Below are positions 2,244-26,019 of a stretch of DNA of 47,045 nucleotides, piece after piece (position 1 is the stretch's first letter; every line of letters starts with the position of its first letter). The position numbers and the translations under genes were made by a program. This DNA is from an uncultured Pirellula sp. GTDB lineage: Bacteria; Planctomycetota; Planctomycetia; Pirellulales; Pirellulaceae. The notes under the pieces were generated by a model, which searched no databases, was not told the origin of the DNA, and was given only the letters and a program-made list of their open reading frames with translations. The stretch covers positions 1 to 47,045 of the forward strand of contig CAIJIZ010000227.1 in assembly GCA_903820735.1 (NCBI GenBank), written 5' to 3'.

Positions 2244-2590
2244 TGAATGCTATTCCCGTCTAGGGGCCGGCGTTGGGGACTGCGATCTGATCGATAGCGG
2301 CACTCTATCGCACCGCTTGTGCCTAGAACTGTATCTAGCCTTGGTCGAATTGCCAGTCCATTTACCCTACAGAATAACCCAAGAACAAGTCGATTGATTC
2401 TGTAGGGATCGTACGACCTGTAGGGCCTGATTGCAGGGAAAGCACAGAAAAGGAAAAAAGGAGGAGACGACTGGCCATTTTATCCTCTTTTCCTTTACAT
2501 TAAGGTGGTGCAGCGCGGAATAGTCTGACTTGTTCGTTCAGGAAAGTCTTTCCGTCGCCATCCTCGAATACACGACGAAAGTGGGAAAAA
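2244..2590. other. Divergent intergenic region lipA / secreted protein
   Basis: No convincing gene lies in this 347-bp gap between two divergently read genes. It contains a small perfect hairpin CGATAG-CGGCACT-CTATCG (2292-2310) and a larger purine/pyrimidine hairpin (2449-2496), listed separately. Promoters for both flanking genes are expected here, but I could not pick convincing -35/-10 boxes. Confidence 0.6.
2449..2496 (+). promoter_or_regulatory. Imperfect purine/pyrimidine hairpin in leader of 2591 gene
   Basis: The left arm (2449-2465, AAAGGAAAAAAGGAGGA) pairs with the right arm (2483-2496, TCCTCTTTTCCTTT) with one bulged stretch, across a loop of about 17 bases. It lies about 95 bp before the start of the secreted CCPFC protein. 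It might be a leader structure or a terminator. No family match is known to me. Confidence 0.3.
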
Positions 2591-4219
2591 ATGTTGAAGA
2601 AATGGATCTTTGGTGGGCTGATCGCTTCAGCCTTGGTGATTTTCCCTGCACAGCAAATGTCGGCCATTCGAGGCGAAGAAGCCGCCGAATGCTGCCCGTT
2701 CTGCTCCGCCGCCTCCCAAACACTTCGCCAAGAAAGCCTTTCGATGGATGCTGTCGCGATCGCGACCCTCCAATCCGACGGCCGACTCGATATCGATGGA
2801 AACGCAACTTTCGTTGTCGAACGAGTATTGCGTGGCGAAACCCTTCTGCAAAAAGGACAAAAAGTCGAAGCCAATTACTTCGGCCCCGGCAAAACCGAGA
2901 AGAAGTTCTTGCTCTTAGGCGTCGACCCAAGAAACCTAGTCTGGTCCTCCCCGTTACCTCTATCTGCAGACGCCGAAAAATACATCGACGCCATTCAAAA
3001 GCTGCCGGAAGATCCTATCGAGCGATTGGATTTCTACCAAAAGCATTTCGAACACCCCGATTCGCTCCTTGCAAGAGATAGCTACGATGAATTCGCGTTA
3101 GCTCCCTACGAAGACGTTAAAAAACTCAAGTCTAAAATGGACCGCGAGCGCTTGATGGACTGGGTTCGTGATCCAGCTATCGCTCCAGATCGCAAACGCC
3201 TCTACTACACAATGCTCGGAATTTGTGGCACCGAAGCTGACGCAGTTGAATTCGAATCGATGATTCGAAGCACCGATCCCGAAAAACGTGCAGGCTTAGA
3301 TGCACTTATCGCCTCCTACCTCATGCTTCGAGGCGAAGAAGGACTCCCCTTGATCAACGAGCAGTTCCTAGCCAACCGAAAAGCAACCTACCCTGATGTG
3401 TACTCCTCAGTTATGGCCCTGCGTTTTCATGGAACCGAAGCCGATCGCTTACCCAAAGAAGCCATCCTCGTTTCGATGCGCCATCTGCTCGAAGCCCCCG
3501 ATCTGGCTGATCTGGTTATCCCGGACCTGGCTCGTTGGGGTGACTGGAGTCAAATCGACCGACTCACAGAACTCTTCAAAAAGGCCAACGACGATAACTC
3601 CTGGGTACGCGTCCCAGTCGTGAACTATCTAAGAGCCTGCCCACTCCCAGAAGCAAAAGAACGATTGACCGAACTCGAAAAGATCGATCCAAAAGCTGTG
3701 AAACGAGCTGCGACTTTCTTTCCAATCCCTGCCCCCAGCGCCCCGAAAGACGGCAACTCAAACAACGATGCCGACAAATCCAAAAAAGAAGCGAAACCAG
3801 GGCAACCTAACGAAAACTCCTCGTCAAACTGGTCTCCAATCAATCGAAACAGCCTAATCGCGGAAAGCAACGACAATCCCTCCCGACCGGCTTCAAGCAC
3901 CGCCGGCTCGAATCGTATCGCTCGCGCCGAACGATTCTCCAGCCGCAAATTGGTTGCTGGCTGGCGTCTACAAGACAATAAATTAATGGCTTTTGATTCC
4001 ATCGAAGCCCCACGCAACGCCGCATTCGTCCCTTCAAACGTCTCCTTCGCGGATCATCCGCAAGCCAAAACGACCGAATTCGGGATGAACTCTTGGATCG
4101 TCTTGACCGTAATGCTCCTCAACGGGCTTGCCCTAGGAATCCTCCTCTGGATGATGCTCACCGGCATGTTCTCCAGAGAACATTGGGTCCTGCGCCGTTT
4201 GTTGCTTTCGAAGTCCTAA
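2591..4219 (+). CDS. Secreted CCPFC-motif protein with C-terminal membrane anchor
   Basis: Function unknown. The 542-residue product begins with a signal peptide (residues 1 to about 25), followed at once by a cysteine cluster E-C-C-P-F-C (C34, C35, C38). A helical, HEAT-like middle region spans roughly residues 140-370. A Lys/Asn/Ser-rich linker (about 375-440) comes next, and a hydrophobic segment near 502-525 is followed by a basic tail, which suggests a periplasmic body tethered to the membrane. A GGGA lies about six bases before the ATG. I recall similar proteins from other planctomycetes but no experimental function. The next gene (DUF3299-like) starts 20 bp after the stop, and both carry cysteine motifs of the type seen in metal or redox proteins, so joint function in the envelope is plausible. 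Confidence 0.8.
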   Translation: MLKKWIFGGLIASALVIFPAQQMSAIRGEEAAECCPFCSAASQTLRQESLSMDAVAIATLQSDGRLDIDGNATFVVERVLRGETLLQKGQKVEANYFGPGKTEKKFLLLGVDPRNLVWSSPLPLSADAEKYIDAIQKLPEDPIERLDFYQKHFEHPDSLLARDSYDEFALAPYEDVKKLKSKMDRERLMDWVRDPAIAPDRKRLYYTMLGICGTEADAVEFESMIRSTDPEKRAGLDALIASYLMLRGEEGLPLINEQFLANRKATYPDVYSSVMALRFHGTEADRLPKEAILVSMRHLLEAPDLADLVIPDLARWGDWSQIDRLTELFKKANDDNSWVRVPVVNYLRACPLPEAKERLTELEKIDPKAVKRAATFFPIPAPSAPKDGNSNNDADKSKKEAKPGQPNENSSSNWSPINRNSLIAESNDNPSRPASSTAGSNRIARAERFSSRKLVAGWRLQDNKLMAFDSIEAPRNAAFVPSNVSFADHPQAKTTEFGMNSWIVLTVMLLNGLALGILLWMMLTGMFSREHWVLRRLLLSKS

Positions 4220-20313: not shown

Positions 20314-22095
20314 ATGCACGCATATCGCACGCACAATTGTGGTCAACTACGGTCCAACCATGCCGGTCAGAGCGTAAAGCTATCTGGTTGGGTCTTTAGA
20401 AAACGAGATCATGGCAACTTACTTTTTGTTGACCTAAGAGATCATTACGGGGTAACCCAAGTCGTTGTAGATCGCGATAGTTCAGCTTTCGCTTTGATCG
20501 AAGGCCTGAAGCTCGAGTCGGTAGTTGCCGTCGACGGCCAAGTTCTCTCTCGGGGGTCGGACAAGATTAATCCGGAGCTTCCCACAGGGGAGATCGAAGT
20601 CAAAGCGAGTAAAGTTGAGTTGTTATCCGAAGCTGCGGAGTTGCCGTTTCCGATCTTTGGAAACGCAGAGTATCCAGAGGATATCCGACTTAGAAATCGC
20701 TTTCTTGATCTTCGCCGAGAGAAACTCCACGAGAACATCGTCTTGAGAAGCCAAGTCATTGCGAGCCTACGACGCCGCATGATAGATGAAGGATTTACAG
20801 AATTTCAGACTCCGATTCTGACCGCATCAAGTCCTGAGGGGGCTCGGGATTTCTTAGTACCCTCTCGGGTTCATCACGGCAAGTTTTATGCGTTGCCACA
20901 AGCCCCGCAGATGTTCAAGCAGCTTTTGATGGTTGCCGGCTTTGACAGGTACTTCCAAATTGCTCCGTGTTTCCGAGACGAGGATGCCAGAGCTGACCGA
21001 TCGCCCGGTGAGTTTTATCAGCTCGACTTCGAAATGAGTTTCGTCACGCAAGACGATGTTTTTGCGGCCATTGAACCAGTTTTACATGGTGTTTTTGACG
21101 AGTTCTCGAAGGGTAGAGCGGTAACACCTCCTCCGTTTCCAAGGATCACCTATAAAGACTCGATGCTCAAATATGGGTCGGACAAGCCCGACTTGCGTAA
21201 TCCGATTGAGATTTCAGATGTGACGGAGATATTCCGTGGTGGTCCGTTTGCCGTGTTTGCGAAAAGCATTGAAAACGGGGCAGTGGTTAGAGCGATACCT
21301 GCACCTGCGGCTGGGACCAGGGCGCGTAGCTTTTTTGATTCCGCGAATCAATGGGCCAAAGATGAAGGATTCGCCGGTTTGGCGTATATCAACTTCAAGG
21401 GTGGAGAGGGAGGGGGTATTGCGAAGAATATCGGAGCGGAACGAGTTGCGCAGCTTGTATCCCAGATGAATTTAGGCCCGAACGATGGGGTGTTTTTTGC
21501 TTGCGACAAACCCTTGAATGCGGCAAAGCTAGCTGGGTTAGTTCGAACTCGGGTAGGAACTGAGTTGGATTTGATTGAGAAGAACACCTTTAAGTTCTGT
21601 TGGATCGTTGACTTCCCCATGTACGAGTGGGATGAAATCGACCAGCGCGTCATCTTCAGCCATAACCCTTTCTCAATGCCACAAGGAGAGATGGAAGCTT
21701 TAGAGACGATGAATCCGTTGGATATTCTTGCGTATCAGTACGACATTGTTTGCAATGGCATCGAGTTATCCTCGGGGGCGATTCGCAATCACAAACCGGA
21801 GATCATGTACAAAGCGTTTGAGATTGCGGGCTATGATCGCTCGGTGGTAGACGAGAAGTTCAAAGGCATGATTAATGCCTTCAAGTATGGAGCGCCACCG
21901 CATGGTGGTTCAGCGCCTGGGGTCGACCGAATCGTCATGCTTCTAGCGGACGAGCCTAATATTCGGGAAGTTATTTTGTTCCCGATGAATCAGAAGGCGG
22001 AAGACTTGATGATGGGCGCGCCCTCATATGTATCCGAGAAGCAGTTACGGGAGCTTCGAATCGCGATTGTGGGTGATCCACATAAGTCCAATTAA
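20314..22095 (+). CDS. aspS: Aspartyl-tRNA synthetase, bacterial type
   Basis: This class II enzyme charges tRNA-Asp (or tRNA-Asn too, if the organism uses the transamidation route; this cannot be decided here). The 593-residue protein has an N-terminal OB anticodon-binding domain, class II motif 2 ([26 protein letters not shown]), the bacterial GAD insertion domain (about residues 310-420), and motif 3 ([27 protein letters not shown]). Its length is typical of bacterial AspS. It starts 2 bp after secDF and is probably co-transcribed with yajC-secDF. Confidence 0.96.
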
Positions 22096-22125
22096 GGAAC
22101 TGTCTGCTCGCAGTTAGATGTTAAG

Positions 22126-22151
22126 CCAACCAACTTTGGTTCGCTGGTTGG
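22126..22151 (+). terminator. Hairpin after aspS
   Basis: CCAACCA (22126-22132) pairs with TGGTTGG (22145-22151) around a 12-base loop, 30 bp after the aspS stop. There is no T-run, so if it terminates the yajC-secDF-aspS transcript it is not a classical intrinsic terminator. Confidence 0.35.
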
Positions 22152-22240
22152 AGTAGTTGGTAACATCGCATTGAAATTTGATAGCGAGTAAATTTCATTT
22201 CGTGGGCTGATGGTACGATTTCCCGACCGCTCCTTCCAAA

Positions 22241-22285
22241 TTGCTAGCATTTGGCGCTGCGCCGAGTGGGGACAGTCCCTGAACC
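22241..22285 (+). repeat. REP-like palindromic repeat, copy A
   Basis: This 45-bp element starts TTGCTAGCAT, contains the palindrome GGCGCTGCGCC and the hairpin GGGACAGTCCC, and ends CTGAACC. It matches copy B closely. Confidence 0.85.
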
Positions 22286-22304
22286 GCCCCCCGGAGCGAT
22301 CAGT

Positions 22305-22349
22305 TTGCTAGCATTCGCCGCTGCGCCGACCGGGGACAGTCCCTGAACC
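22305..22349 (+). repeat. REP-like palindromic repeat, copy B
   Basis: This 45-bp element has the same orientation as copy A, 19 bp downstream of it, with the same TTGCTAGCAT start, the GGGGACAGTCCC hairpin and the CTGAACC end. The two differ at a few positions in the middle. Confidence 0.85.
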
Positions 22350-22785
22350 TGCGTCGATTTTAAAAAGAATGCTTGTATTCATAATCGGGGCTCAGAGTGA
22401 CTCGCTTCGCCTAAAATCCCCCTCCCGATCAGCTCATTTGTGCCTGTTCGTCCCTTTATCTTCTAGCCCCCCCACACTCCGCGCGCAACCATTGCGCCAC
22501 GACCGCCTCTTGCGCCCGCTTCACTCGCCTCTCACTCAAACCTCACTCGCAATGACAAACCGGATGCGAATGCCGCGTCCGATTCGGCCTTGGCTTTCTC
22601 TCAATGACTCACCCGACAACCGGGCGAATACCAGCACTCCCACTATCCTCTGCAATTACCAAAATAATCCACTCTTGTCGGCAGCGATTCCCTCATTAGA
22701 CGCAAAGACCAAGTGCCATCCCAAGACGCAACTCTGTCCGCAAATGCGAACGTCGCTGTTTCCTAGTATCGCGATGCCCGCCTCC

Positions 22786-24171
22786 CTAGGCGCTACTTGA
22801 GGTCGCCTGCACGCCATTTATGCTCACATAATCCATTCCACCGTGCACCTCTTCGACAACCTGTTCGATATCTTCGGCGCCCATGCCGCGCGCTTGCGAT
22901 GGCACTTCTACGTCCCACGGAATGCGAAGCGAAGATGGATCATAGGACTTCTCCGTCCCAATATCTCCTCGACCCGCTTCGCGAGGACAACAACGACTGA
23001 ACTCTCTGAGCAATTCAAGAAATTGCTCCACCTTGATTTCTAATCGACGAAGTGCCTCCGGCACTTCCTCCGGCTTGGGACCTCCTCGCTTTGCGACTTC
23101 ATTCGATATACTCCACTGCAGCAATCCAAAGTACTCTGTCGCGGAAATCGGCAAAAACCCTTTATCGCTACAACGCGTTCCAAGCGTACTGATCTGTGGA
23201 TCCGTCGATAAAGTATCGAGAAGTATTGGACTTAAAAACTCTCCCCTCGCAGCACGTTGCTCCGCTGTTAACTTCTTGGTCTGATCGCCCTTCTGAACCT
23301 CAACCTTACTATTCCCCTCAACTCTCGATGCTTCTTGCGAAACGGACTTGCTACCGTAAAGTAATTGAGCACATAGACTCTCCAACTCGCTATCGCTGAA
23401 CTCATCTCGCTTCGCATCACCCAATGCTCCAAGCAGTTTCTTCGCACGTTTCACTTGTGCCTTCGAGGCCTTGTCATTCTCCATCCCTAACGCCATCCTA
23501 AGCAAATCCAACCGCTTCTTCGCTGAGGTGTCTTCGTAACCATAAAGCGTATCGCTCATCATCGCGCGGAAGGGATTCAAGTCGATGTACATCGCACATG
23601 CCAAAAGATGCGCTTTCGTACGCACTCTTACCGCATGAAATCTCGCCTGGAAAAAATGACCTAACGTCTGCCCTGCCCCGTCCTCCCGATTCGCTTTCTG
23701 CGCTATAACCTGAGCCAACAATCGCATCCACCAACTGATGTCGCTCAATCGCAATCGAAGCTCTTTTACCAGCTTGGAATCCTGCACCTGAGCTGTGATC
23801 TCAGCATCGGTCGGAGGTAATGGTTCGTAGGTCACCACCCCGTTGACCTTCAACTTCTTGCGTCGCTTCGGACACATCGTCAACCATCGCTCAACTACTG
23901 TTCTGTCGTCCCAACTAGCTACTACATCAGGTCGAGAGCGGAGCAAGAAATGAGTGTGATTATCCATCAAGGAATAACCAAGAAGGTCGATTGCCATATA
24001 GCTACACAAATGCTCAATTCGCTGATAGAACCACTGCCGACGGTGCAAAAGCTTTCTGCGTTTCTTTCGATCCATCCCCAGCAAAAACAAATTACGACAC
24101 ACCTTGAGCATCGTGTGCACATAAGCAATCTCAGAAGGATGGAACACACTCGAACGACAAGCACGCGACAT
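22786..24171 (-). CDS. Y1 (HUH) transposase, REP-associated type
   Basis: This protein belongs to the IS200-like single-strand transposase superfamily in the form often linked to REP elements (RAYT). Visible are the HUH-type motif N-H-T-H (H72, H74 in GYSLMDNHTHFLLRSRPD) and the typical family segment FQARFHAVRV...AMYIDLNPFRAMM, where Y195 lies near the conserved tyrosine region (I cannot be sure that it is the nucleophile). At 461 residues it is longer than the usual 150-330; the C-terminal 230 residues are Lys/Glu-rich and match nothing I know. An AAGGAG site precedes ATG 24171. Copies of a palindromic repeat flank it on both sides, which fits the RAYT-REP relation. Confidence 0.8.
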   Translation of the reverse strand: MSRACRSSVFHPSEIAYVHTMLKVCRNLFLLGMDRKKRRKLLHRRQWFYQRIEHLCSYMAIDLLGYSLMDNHTHFLLRSRPDVVASWDDRTVVERWLTMCPKRRKKLKVNGVVTYEPLPPTDAEITAQVQDSKLVKELRLRLSDISWWMRLLAQVIAQKANREDGAGQTLGHFFQARFHAVRVRTKAHLLACAMYIDLNPFRAMMSDTLYGYEDTSAKKRLDLLRMALGMENDKASKAQVKRAKKLLGALGDAKRDEFSDSELESLCAQLLYGSKSVSQEASRVEGNSKVEVQKGDQTKKLTAEQRAARGEFLSPILLDTLSTDPQISTLGTRCSDKGFLPISATEYFGLLQWSISNEVAKRGGPKPEEVPEALRRLEIKVEQFLELLREFSRCCPREAGRGDIGTEKSYDPSSLRIPWDVEVPSQARGMGAEDIEQVVEEVHGGMDYVSINGVQATSSSA

Positions 24172-24366
24172 GATGCAGTCTCCTTATCCACTGACAAAAC
24201 ATTCAAGGACTCCGAGTATGTCGCTCGGCCCTCGAGCCATTGCAAGGGAACCATCGGCGAGAATACTCGGACACAACTATGAGAAACGAAAGCCGGGGTT
24301 TGGATCTGCGCGCAAGGCAACCCAACACGGAGGGAAGAAGTAGAAGTCAAAGACGGGGAGTCCCTC

Positions 24367-24402
24367 CCGTTGCCACCTACAAGGTGGCTCGCTCTGCAAC
24401 GG
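24367..24402. repeat. Nested hairpin upstream of the Y1 transposase gene
   Basis: An outer stem CCGTTG/CAACGG encloses an inner stem CCACC/GGTGG with a 5-base loop. It lies about 200 bp upstream of the transposase start. It may be an end or recognition structure of the element, which is untested. Confidence 0.4.
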
Positions 24403-24675
24403 TTGTGTGTGCCGTGAACGTTGTGTGTGCGAGAAACAAAGCGATTTAAGCCGAGTCATTCTGCCAAAACCAATGTGCCATAATTCAAATTCCATGTCAA
24501 CAATTTGGGCTAAAAAATCTTCAATAATTGCTTAACCAACTAAATCAATAATAGGTGTTGCATACTCTTGATGGTAATCCCAACTCTCGCTGATGATTGT
24601 ATTAAATAGCTATCAATACCGCTTAACGTTCATCCAGCCGTTTCGGGGACTGTTCCTCATGAGATCCTGATCGAA

Positions 24676-24721
24676 TTGCTAGCATTACGATTTGGCTGAG
24701 TTTGGGGACAGACCCCGAACC
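24676..24721 (+). repeat. REP-like palindromic repeat, copy C
   Basis: This element has the same TTGCTAGCAT start and GAACC end as copies A and B, but the hairpin reads GGGGACAGACCCC, keeping a GGGG/CCCC stem despite base changes. It lies on the other side of the transposase. Confidence 0.75.
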
Positions 24722-24740
24722 GCACCGGCGCGAGACCGGA

Positions 24741-24765
24741 TTGCTAGTATTTGCCACAGTGTTGG
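24741..24765 (+). repeat. Partial REP-like repeat, copy D
   Basis: It starts TTGCTAGTATTTGCC and keeps similarity only through GTTGG, with the hairpin part lost. It ends 35 bp before the truncated ISL3 transposase frame. Confidence 0.5.
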
Positions 24766-24799
24766 CTATCGGGCCCTCGGAACATGCATGCCAAGAGCT

Positions 24800-25837
24800 T
24801 TAACGCTTAGTCGGCGCCATCATGGTACGAATGACCCGCTGATACCAATCTCTGAAGTAGCTCTTTGCCTTACCCTCCGTCTCCTGGGCCCAGAGATCGC
24901 GTAAGAGCTCTTTGTAGGACCAAGCTCGCCCGGTAGCGAGCGATAGATTGCAAATGGACTGAAACCTAGCGTGTTGTTTTTCGCTGTGGTTCTCAAGCGA
25001 AGTTAACCAGAAGTATTTACTCCCCGTGAGTCGATCATCCCCATCCTTGAGCAGTCGCTTATGCTCTCCACGGCGAACTTTGTCGACAGCTTCGTTGGCC
25101 ATCTTCATGATGTGAAACTTGTCGTGTACGATCTTGCTTTCGGCGAATGGAATCATCTCCTTGGCAGCCCGGACAAAGGCAGGGCTCATATCCATGGCGA
25201 TCGCCTCGACTGACTGCAATTGCTCTTGACTTAGCTGGGAAAAACAGGATTTTGCGGCCTGTGTGTCGTGTCCTTCCTCGATCGCTTCAACGGTACTGTT
25301 GTCCAGGTTGTACAAGATCGAAACAAACTTCCTCCCCTTGGCGAACGCTTTCTCGTCGATGCCGATCCGTGGAAGTAGCGACGGTTCCTTCCGAGCTTTT
25401 CCACGAGCAACTGCACGTTCAATGATATGCCAAGTTGCATCCCATTGGAGTCGCAGAATTGTCATGGCACCTTTGACCGTTTGAGTCATCAGTAGGACTT
25501 CGATAGCAAACCGCTCAAACATGATCGTGAATCGACTGTGCGGCAGAGCCCATGGTACAGTCACGGTCTTGACTCCATGCTCGGGACAGTCCACTCGGGG
25601 AACACGGCCAATGAGGATTGTCTTGTATTGGCACGAGTCCAGATGCCGCCATCGACGCTCCTCTGCATGATCGTAGCAAGCAAGCTCTTTCTGGCACTCA
25701 GGACAGCAGAACTTTGTACCAGATGGGTGCTCGACCCTCACTTGGATCTCTTCGGCTGGAATGTCCAATTTGACACCGGAGACAGTCCAAGGGGAGGTCA
25801 GTCCTAGGATATGTTGATAGAGCTCTTTGTCTTGCAT
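24800..25837 (-). pseudogene. ISL3-family transposase, C-terminally truncated
   Basis: The N-terminus has the zinc-finger-like CCPECQKE and the DCPEHGVK segment typical of ISL3. The DDE region shows IGIDEKAFAKGRKFVSIL, AMDMSPAFVRA and VHDKFHIMK. The frame stops after MMAPTKR, about 60-80 residues before the usual end, so the C-terminal TNA/ARGFR-type block and probably the catalytic glutamate region are missing. Immediately after the stop another frame stays open for 12 codons only. I chose ATG 25837 (MQDKELYQHILGL) because it matches the family start; another ATG lies five codons earlier. This is an insertion sequence remnant. Confidence 0.8.
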
Positions 25838-25892
25838 TGCTGGGGGTTCCATTCCCCTGCAATTGTACCATCACCCACGATAATGCCGGATG
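24800..25892 (-). mobile_element. ISL3-family insertion sequence remnant
   Basis: This span covers the truncated transposase gene plus about 55 bp upstream of it. The upstream end probably lies near 25892, where the glycosyltransferase-like reading frame loses its family likeness. No inverted repeat partner was found at the other end, so the element is likely incomplete and immobile. Confidence 0.6.
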
Positions 25893-26019
25893 GACCCCAA
25901 AGATGCACCTGATGACCGTGAGATTGCAGAAACTTGATCGTCAATTGCTCCATTAAGCTTAATTGGCCACCAATCCAGAGGGTATGGACGATGGAATTCT
26001 CTTTAAGTAGCGGAGACAC
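25893..26019 (-). pseudogene. Glycosyltransferase-like gene stub cut by the IS
   Basis: From a GTG at 26019, with AAGGGA upstream, the frame encodes about 42 residues resembling the start of capsule-type/GT32-like glycosyltransferases (IVHTLWIGGQLSLMEQL, then SHGHQVHLW). After HLW the likeness ends and the sequence runs into the ISL3 remnant. No remainder of the gene is seen on the other side of the IS, so this is a broken 5' end. The family assignment rests on pattern memory of this short segment. Confidence 0.55.

Follow-up and report, generated by a model that had tools for sequence, protein, structure and literature searches.

A TIRYT-like Y1 transposase of an uncultured Pirellula and the multiplied, dispersed repeats that are probably its ends

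The window analyzed here, a stretch of 47,045 nucleotides from an uncultured Pirellula sp. (contig CAIJIZ010000227.1 of assembly GCA_903820735.1), carries on its minus strand at 22786–24171 an intact gene for a 461-aa protein. With 24.5 bits against Pfam Y1_Tnp (cut-off 23) and the catalytic His and Tyr positions retained (NHTH at residues 71–74, YIDLNP with Tyr195), the product is a Y1 HUH transposase, as the original prediction had it. N71, H72, H74 and Y195 are invariant across 39 aligned sequences. The predicted structure reached a mean pLDDT of 76.9, and its top PDB fold match was 4er8, the E. coli REP-associated transposase, at a weak E of 0.017; the fold search of solved structures with this model returned nothing at E 0.001, and a profile search of solved structures nothing at E 0.01.

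Three repeat units of about 45 bp and a partial fourth lie on both sides of the gene, confirming what had been proposed, and all four have the same plus-strand orientation, making them direct repeats. Unit 1 (22241–22285) opens with TTGCTAGCATT (22241–22251) and closes with the core GGGGACAGTCCCTGAACC (22268–22285); unit 2 (22305–22349, core 22332–22349) follows 64 bp downstream in the same orientation; and unit 3 (24676–24721) comprises TTGCTAGCATT (24676–24686) and the core GGGGACAGACCCCGAACC (24704–24721). Partial unit 4 (24741–24785) begins with TTGCTAGTATT (24741–24751) and has no core matching the pattern, its end being a guess. The layout of a full unit is TTGCTAGCATT, 16–17 bases and the core GGGGACAG[TA]CCC[TC]GAACC, with a unit length of 45–46 bp. 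In the window, the 18-bp core was matched three times at up to 3 mismatches (0.03 expected; three or more in 0 of 100 shuffles) and TTGCTAGCATT four times at up to 1 mismatch (0.76 expected; four or more in 0 of 100 shuffles); the repeats are real and above chance. Tandem Repeats Finder reported no repeat in 21500–26000, and, with regard to a reading as terminators, no T runs follow the window cores. The proposed palindromic nature holds for the sequence itself (TGCTAGCA and GGGGACxGTCCC), but single-strand folding of the three units gave z-scores of −0.78, +0.26 and −2.65 on the plus strand, two of them unremarkable, and of −0.01, −0.13 and −0.80 on the minus strand. A gene for an ISL3-family transposase (24800–25852, minus strand; 241.9 bits, cut-off 180) adjoins partial unit 4 and may have truncated the array.

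The suggested dispersal of the repeat in the host genome was borne out in the draft assembly (5.9 Mb, 842 contigs), where the core pattern, with up to 2 mismatches allowed, matched 33 times and in 24 of these exactly, against 7 and 0 for the reversed-pattern control. The 24 exact cores form 10 clusters, of which six (C108, C170, C227, which is the window, C607, C686 and C744) have a period of 63–65 bp, two (C266 and C568) a period of 98 bp and one (C503) a period of 276–277 bp, the tenth (C647) being a lone core. TTGCTAGCATT occurs 29 times in the genome versus 5 times for its control, and most cores keep a fixed distance to TTGCTAGCATT-like motifs. GCTAGC starts 25–26 bases 5′ of the core in 19 of the 24 and 20–22 bases 3′ of it in 16, and is absent within 45 bases of the core in C170, C607 and C647. 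Judged by open frames of at least 100 codons rather than gene calls, frames of 100–155 codons overlap the cluster span at C108, C170, C607 and C686 among the nine non-window clusters, the C647 core lies inside a 714-codon frame, and no such frame overlaps C266, C503, C568 or C744. Several clusters are near contig ends; C108 breaks off inside a copy of the element, and C266 and C568 end at the array.

The association of the repeat with the transposase element, also part of the original prediction, recurs at a second place. Window positions 22263–22721 on the plus strand match C108 9397–9855 with 93% identity over 459 bp, cut by the contig end; in that copy unit 2 is well preserved and unit 1 decayed, and the sequence beyond is unrelated to the window. 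C108 thus holds a second copy of the 3′ end of the element together with the double unit. On the other side, 129 bp (24394–24522) are identical to the end of C217, where the homology stops, which reflects either a second copy of the region or an assembly overlap, and no exact core was present in the 2.7 kb of C217 examined. C744 (end of L054) and C217 (start of L288) show by eye an apparent overlap of about 380 bp beside the array, so that a single stretch may have been divided between them at the repeat.

No transposase gene was detected in the stretches examined at the nine non-window clusters, in which the one weak match (E 0.007) was at C503. This could be understood if the arrays were a host element, namely sites for protein binding or nucleoid organization whose 63–65 bp approximate six helical turns, beside which the transposase merely landed. 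The constant spacing, kept although the spacers appear by eye to be unrelated between clusters, also speaks for such an element, as does the lack of TTGCTAGCATT among the enriched 7-mers listed for the relatives of the transposase. We nevertheless consider this explanation unlikely, given that C108 carries the double unit and element body in a different setting, that GGGGACA is found again in the flanks across the transposase family, and that the exact core is missing from all 13 other genomes of the same genus surveyed.

Whether other planctomycetes with this transposase have matching repeats had been proposed as a check, with an element found only here as a refutation; the exact core is hardly shared, and only its GGGGACA part is. 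Of 199 genomes drawn from the family, 121 including the host (120 of the 198 others) have a transposase relative at E ≤ 1e-10, whereas 197 of the 198 others lack the exact core; the exact element is therefore nearly confined to the host genome. The sole exception, G179, contains the exact core three times, once singly and twice in or near 22-bp arrays, with no transposase nearby in the 9.9 and 6.0 kb examined. Its 22-bp tandem arrays are built around GGGGACAGACCCC (L141 2886–3320 and 6859–7060), again with no Y1 gene in 9.9 kb. The host genome itself has one full copy of the transposase gene and one 40% relative. Its second Y1 relative, on C494, is accompanied by an array of its own, TGTCAAGTANGTGGGTGGCAC, in four copies (L020 1120–1290), beyond which no further copies were found in the host genome at up to 2 mismatches; another genome, G074, has 17 matches to TGTCAAGTANGTGGGTGGCAC, including four copies spaced as at C494.

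We then compared the relatives of the window protein. Among the best 80 of 236 relatives, those named are nearly all planctomycetes, and per-genome copy numbers from the family survey are lower bounds, as scoring covered 8 candidates in most genomes. The main copy sets of five genomes (G105, G013, G037, G198 and G138) are 92–99% identical and share the gene and about 65–270 bp on each side, more where arrays are present, before they diverge; copies in G183 are 83–86% identical, and further copies in all six genomes are more diverged. By these sets, the relatives are multicopy mobile elements.

For the element ends, we started from 151 loci, in which named and unnamed records overlap; 149 records had a gene of 250 codons or more, and they fell into 49 clusters at 75% identity. 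Flanks reached 300 bases in 45 clusters, counting the window, and distant control flanks were available for 37. A blind ranking of all 7-mers placed GGGGACA first: 34 of 45 relatives have it close to the gene, versus 2 of 37 distant flanks. It was found on both sides of the gene in 19 of the 45, purely inverted in 11 of these and mixed or direct in the remainder, and several copies per side are common. The 11 relatives without GGGGACA within the flank limits of 400/450 bases include the window, which is scored as a miss because its cores (437–518 and 533 bp out) exceed those limits. TTGCTAGCATT was not among the enriched 7-mers listed. Upstream, the common form of the end reads GGGGACA[CG]A[GC]C, in 29 flanks. 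A GGGGACA core is usual at element ends in the clade, often as a terminal inverted repeat. In G198 the two ends read TGGGGACATAGC and GTGTCCCCA[AG]GCTC (five copies read on both sides), and [GA]A[CT]C stands one base outside TGGGGACA in all 16 left ends scored, at 14 places; 8 of the 24 left-end matches, those with two mismatches, were left out, and the reversed control also gave 8. This [GA]A[CT]C could itself belong to the element. One G198 locus, L267, has its two ends about 627 bp apart, as against 1421–1456 bp in other copies, and looks like an internal-deletion derivative.

The interpretation originally offered was a classical REP/RAYT pair, in which a low-copy, domesticated Y1 protein processes dispersed palindromes of the host. 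The window system resembles such pairs of the E. coli type (TnpAREP) in its HUH-Y1 protein with a single catalytic Tyr and its dispersed palindromic cores (24 copies), and the nearest fold, 4er8, and the single full gene with one 40% relative point the same way. The conserved GT[AG]G guide of these systems is missing, however, as GT[AG]G stands directly at the core foot in only 1 of 24 copies; the units are direct rather than alternating in orientation; the protein scores 32 bits against the NCBI REP-transposase model NF047646 (REP_Tyr_transpos), whose curated cut-off is 80; and the relatives are not domesticated and low-copy but mobile, with GGGGACA ends and sets of near-identical copies sharing common ends in G105, G013, G037, G198 and G138. 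We therefore rejected the REP/RAYT assignment, which we regard as quite improbable.

A closer parallel is offered by TIRYTs (TIRtrons), described as Y1 transposases with flanking repeats of a GGGGWSAS motif that can form dimers or clusters (Di Nocera et al. 2013, PMC3733652). GGGGACAG, present in 24 of 24 host cores, fits this motif. The window repeats differ in being direct and near-palindromic, the TIRYT arrangement of inverted repeats on the two sides being that of the 11 purely inverted relatives among the 45; the relatives differ in their near-identical mobile copies and in arrays of ends that reach about 52 units, neither of which is described in the section of PMC3733652 concerned. By its Y motif, length and gammaproteobacterial relatives the window protein also appears to resemble TnpA-Y1 subclass 2.3, for which no REP-like sequences were found according to the relevant part of Quentin et al. 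(2018, PMC6006769). YVDLNP in most relatives, NHxH, a long protein, multicopy occurrence and gammaproteobacterial members are shared with the subclass, as the same part describes it; its motifs are NHYH and YVDLNP, compared with NHTH and YIDLNP in the window, and its insertion between HUH and Tyr compares with 123 positions from H72 to Y195 here. The planctomycete relatives, unlike the subclass, carry GGGGACA ends, which ten gammaproteobacterial relatives lack. YIDLNP conforms to the Y---NP motif of TnpA-Y1 class 2 and differs in this from the Y...Q of IS200/IS605 elements, which moreover do not share the GGGGACA inverted repeats; likenesses to IS200/IS605 are the Y1 chemistry, presumed from the family, and the fixed short flank at the G198 left end. 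Elements of the IS200/IS605 type insert 3′ of a short target, which is not duplicated.

Multiplied ends were seen in G105, a single-contig genome of the same genus. All 96 matches of a 19-bp repeat pattern adjoin transposase copies, at five loci, and no array of this pattern lies apart from a transposase. Six copies about 96–99% identical have 0, 4, 14, 22, 27 and 34 upstream TGTCCC motifs (a few strays included), and the largest array comprises 52 units of 19 bp by Tandem Repeats Finder. Junctions in G037, G138 and G198 contain, by eye, tandem pieces of end plus flank, with a common start a few bases beyond the end and stops at differing depths within it. In a comparison whose pairs are not independent, the 10 nucleotides outside the core on the 5′ side were 0.67 identical within loci (26) versus 0.54 between loci (64 pairs; p ~0.01), with identities of at least 0.8 in 13 of 26 loci and 10 of 64 between-locus pairs; on the 3′ side the values for the first 10 nucleotides were 0.60 and 0.57, a difference that was not significant (p 0.27). 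In the next 10 nucleotides, both sides showed somewhat greater similarity within loci than between them (p ~0.01), at low identities, and the third block showed no within-locus excess. An unfiltered first test had given 0.63 versus 0.51 (5′) and 0.67 versus 0.55 (3′). Duplication of the outer 10 bases is supported on the 5′ side only.

Taken together, the repeats are probably the ends of a mobile element of the TIRYT-like Y1 type, multiplied in tandem and dispersed, with the gene-less arrays as end-only derivatives. We favor this reading because the element body occurs with the double unit at a second place, because GGGGACA is characteristic of the family's flanks and because copies within one genome, G105, carry from 0 to about 52 end units; the [GA]A[CT]C flanking the G198 left ends, the junction pieces and the 5′ outer-flank duplication argue in the same direction. 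Y1 enzymes are established to cut and join single strands (PMC6006769, in the part concerned). The core GGGGACaGTCCC, with its near-palindrome GGGGAC-A-GTCCC, could represent a left end and a right end joined directly to each other. The transposase would nick one strand at its own end beside GGGGACA and then transfer or re-extend that strand; failed or one-ended events, repeated at one junction, would stack end units into arrays, and arrays without the gene would be end-only derivatives or relics. Several observations count against the mobile-end reading: the nine other clusters have no transposase in the stretch examined, 11 of 45 relatives, the window among them, lack GGGGACA within the flank limits, G105 has no transposase-free arrays, the C217 copy is coreless in 2.7 kb, the 3′ outer-flank duplication is not significant, TTGCTAGCATT is not accounted for, and ten gammaproteobacterial relatives are devoid of GGGGACA ends. 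As a more tentative and doubtful proposal, a mobile Y1 transposase may turn its own ends into satellite DNA by one-ended nick-and-extend at a fixed outer nick with ragged inner ends, the fused left/right end-only arrays persisting and spreading gene-free.

The units of 63–65 bp might instead be self-mobile in the manner of tiny MITEs, each GAACC being the target for the next insertion. All cores end in GAACC, an ending imposed by the search pattern, and are preceded by A at −3 in 20 of 24 and G at −4 in 19 of 24; [GA]A[CT]C lies outside 16 of 16 G198 left ends; and pairs with a 63–65 bp period occur in six clusters. Since tandem duplication by slippage would look identical, and arrays with periods of 98 and 276–277 bp also occur, we think this explanation rather unlikely.

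The mobile-end reading bears on the origin of bacterial dispersed palindromes and tandem repeats. According to the part concerned of a survey of prokaryotic satellites, only two species have families of long-repeat satellites that were transposed, and the authors suppose a mechanism that is specific but unknown (PMC6749651). As related bacteria show, this kind of Y1 transposase often carries multiplied ends; the G105 copies with 0 to about 52 end units in a single-contig genome would allow a direct test, which cultured relatives, e.g. Neorhodopirellula, make practical. A literature search, with subscription papers mostly outside it, revealed no account of planctomycete Y1 elements with arrays of GGGGACA ends. 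The system is best described as a known kind, the TIRYT-like Y1 element, in a new variant with multiplied, dispersed ends.

Relatives also occur in proteobacteria, in which 14 plasmid records had a match; 10 were read (H3, H10, H12 and H14 left out). All ten gammaproteobacterial relatives, of 321–365 aa, have YVDLNP. No enrichment of GGGGWSA was seen in them (2 matches near, 2 far), and extension of the GGGGACA ends to proteobacteria was dropped on that ground. In a Pseudoalteromonas relative (L296, gene 2450–3424), the downstream flank is tandemly duplicated and a GACAGACACCCACT / AGTGGCTGTC pair lies near the gene, perhaps a different end signature in proteobacteria.
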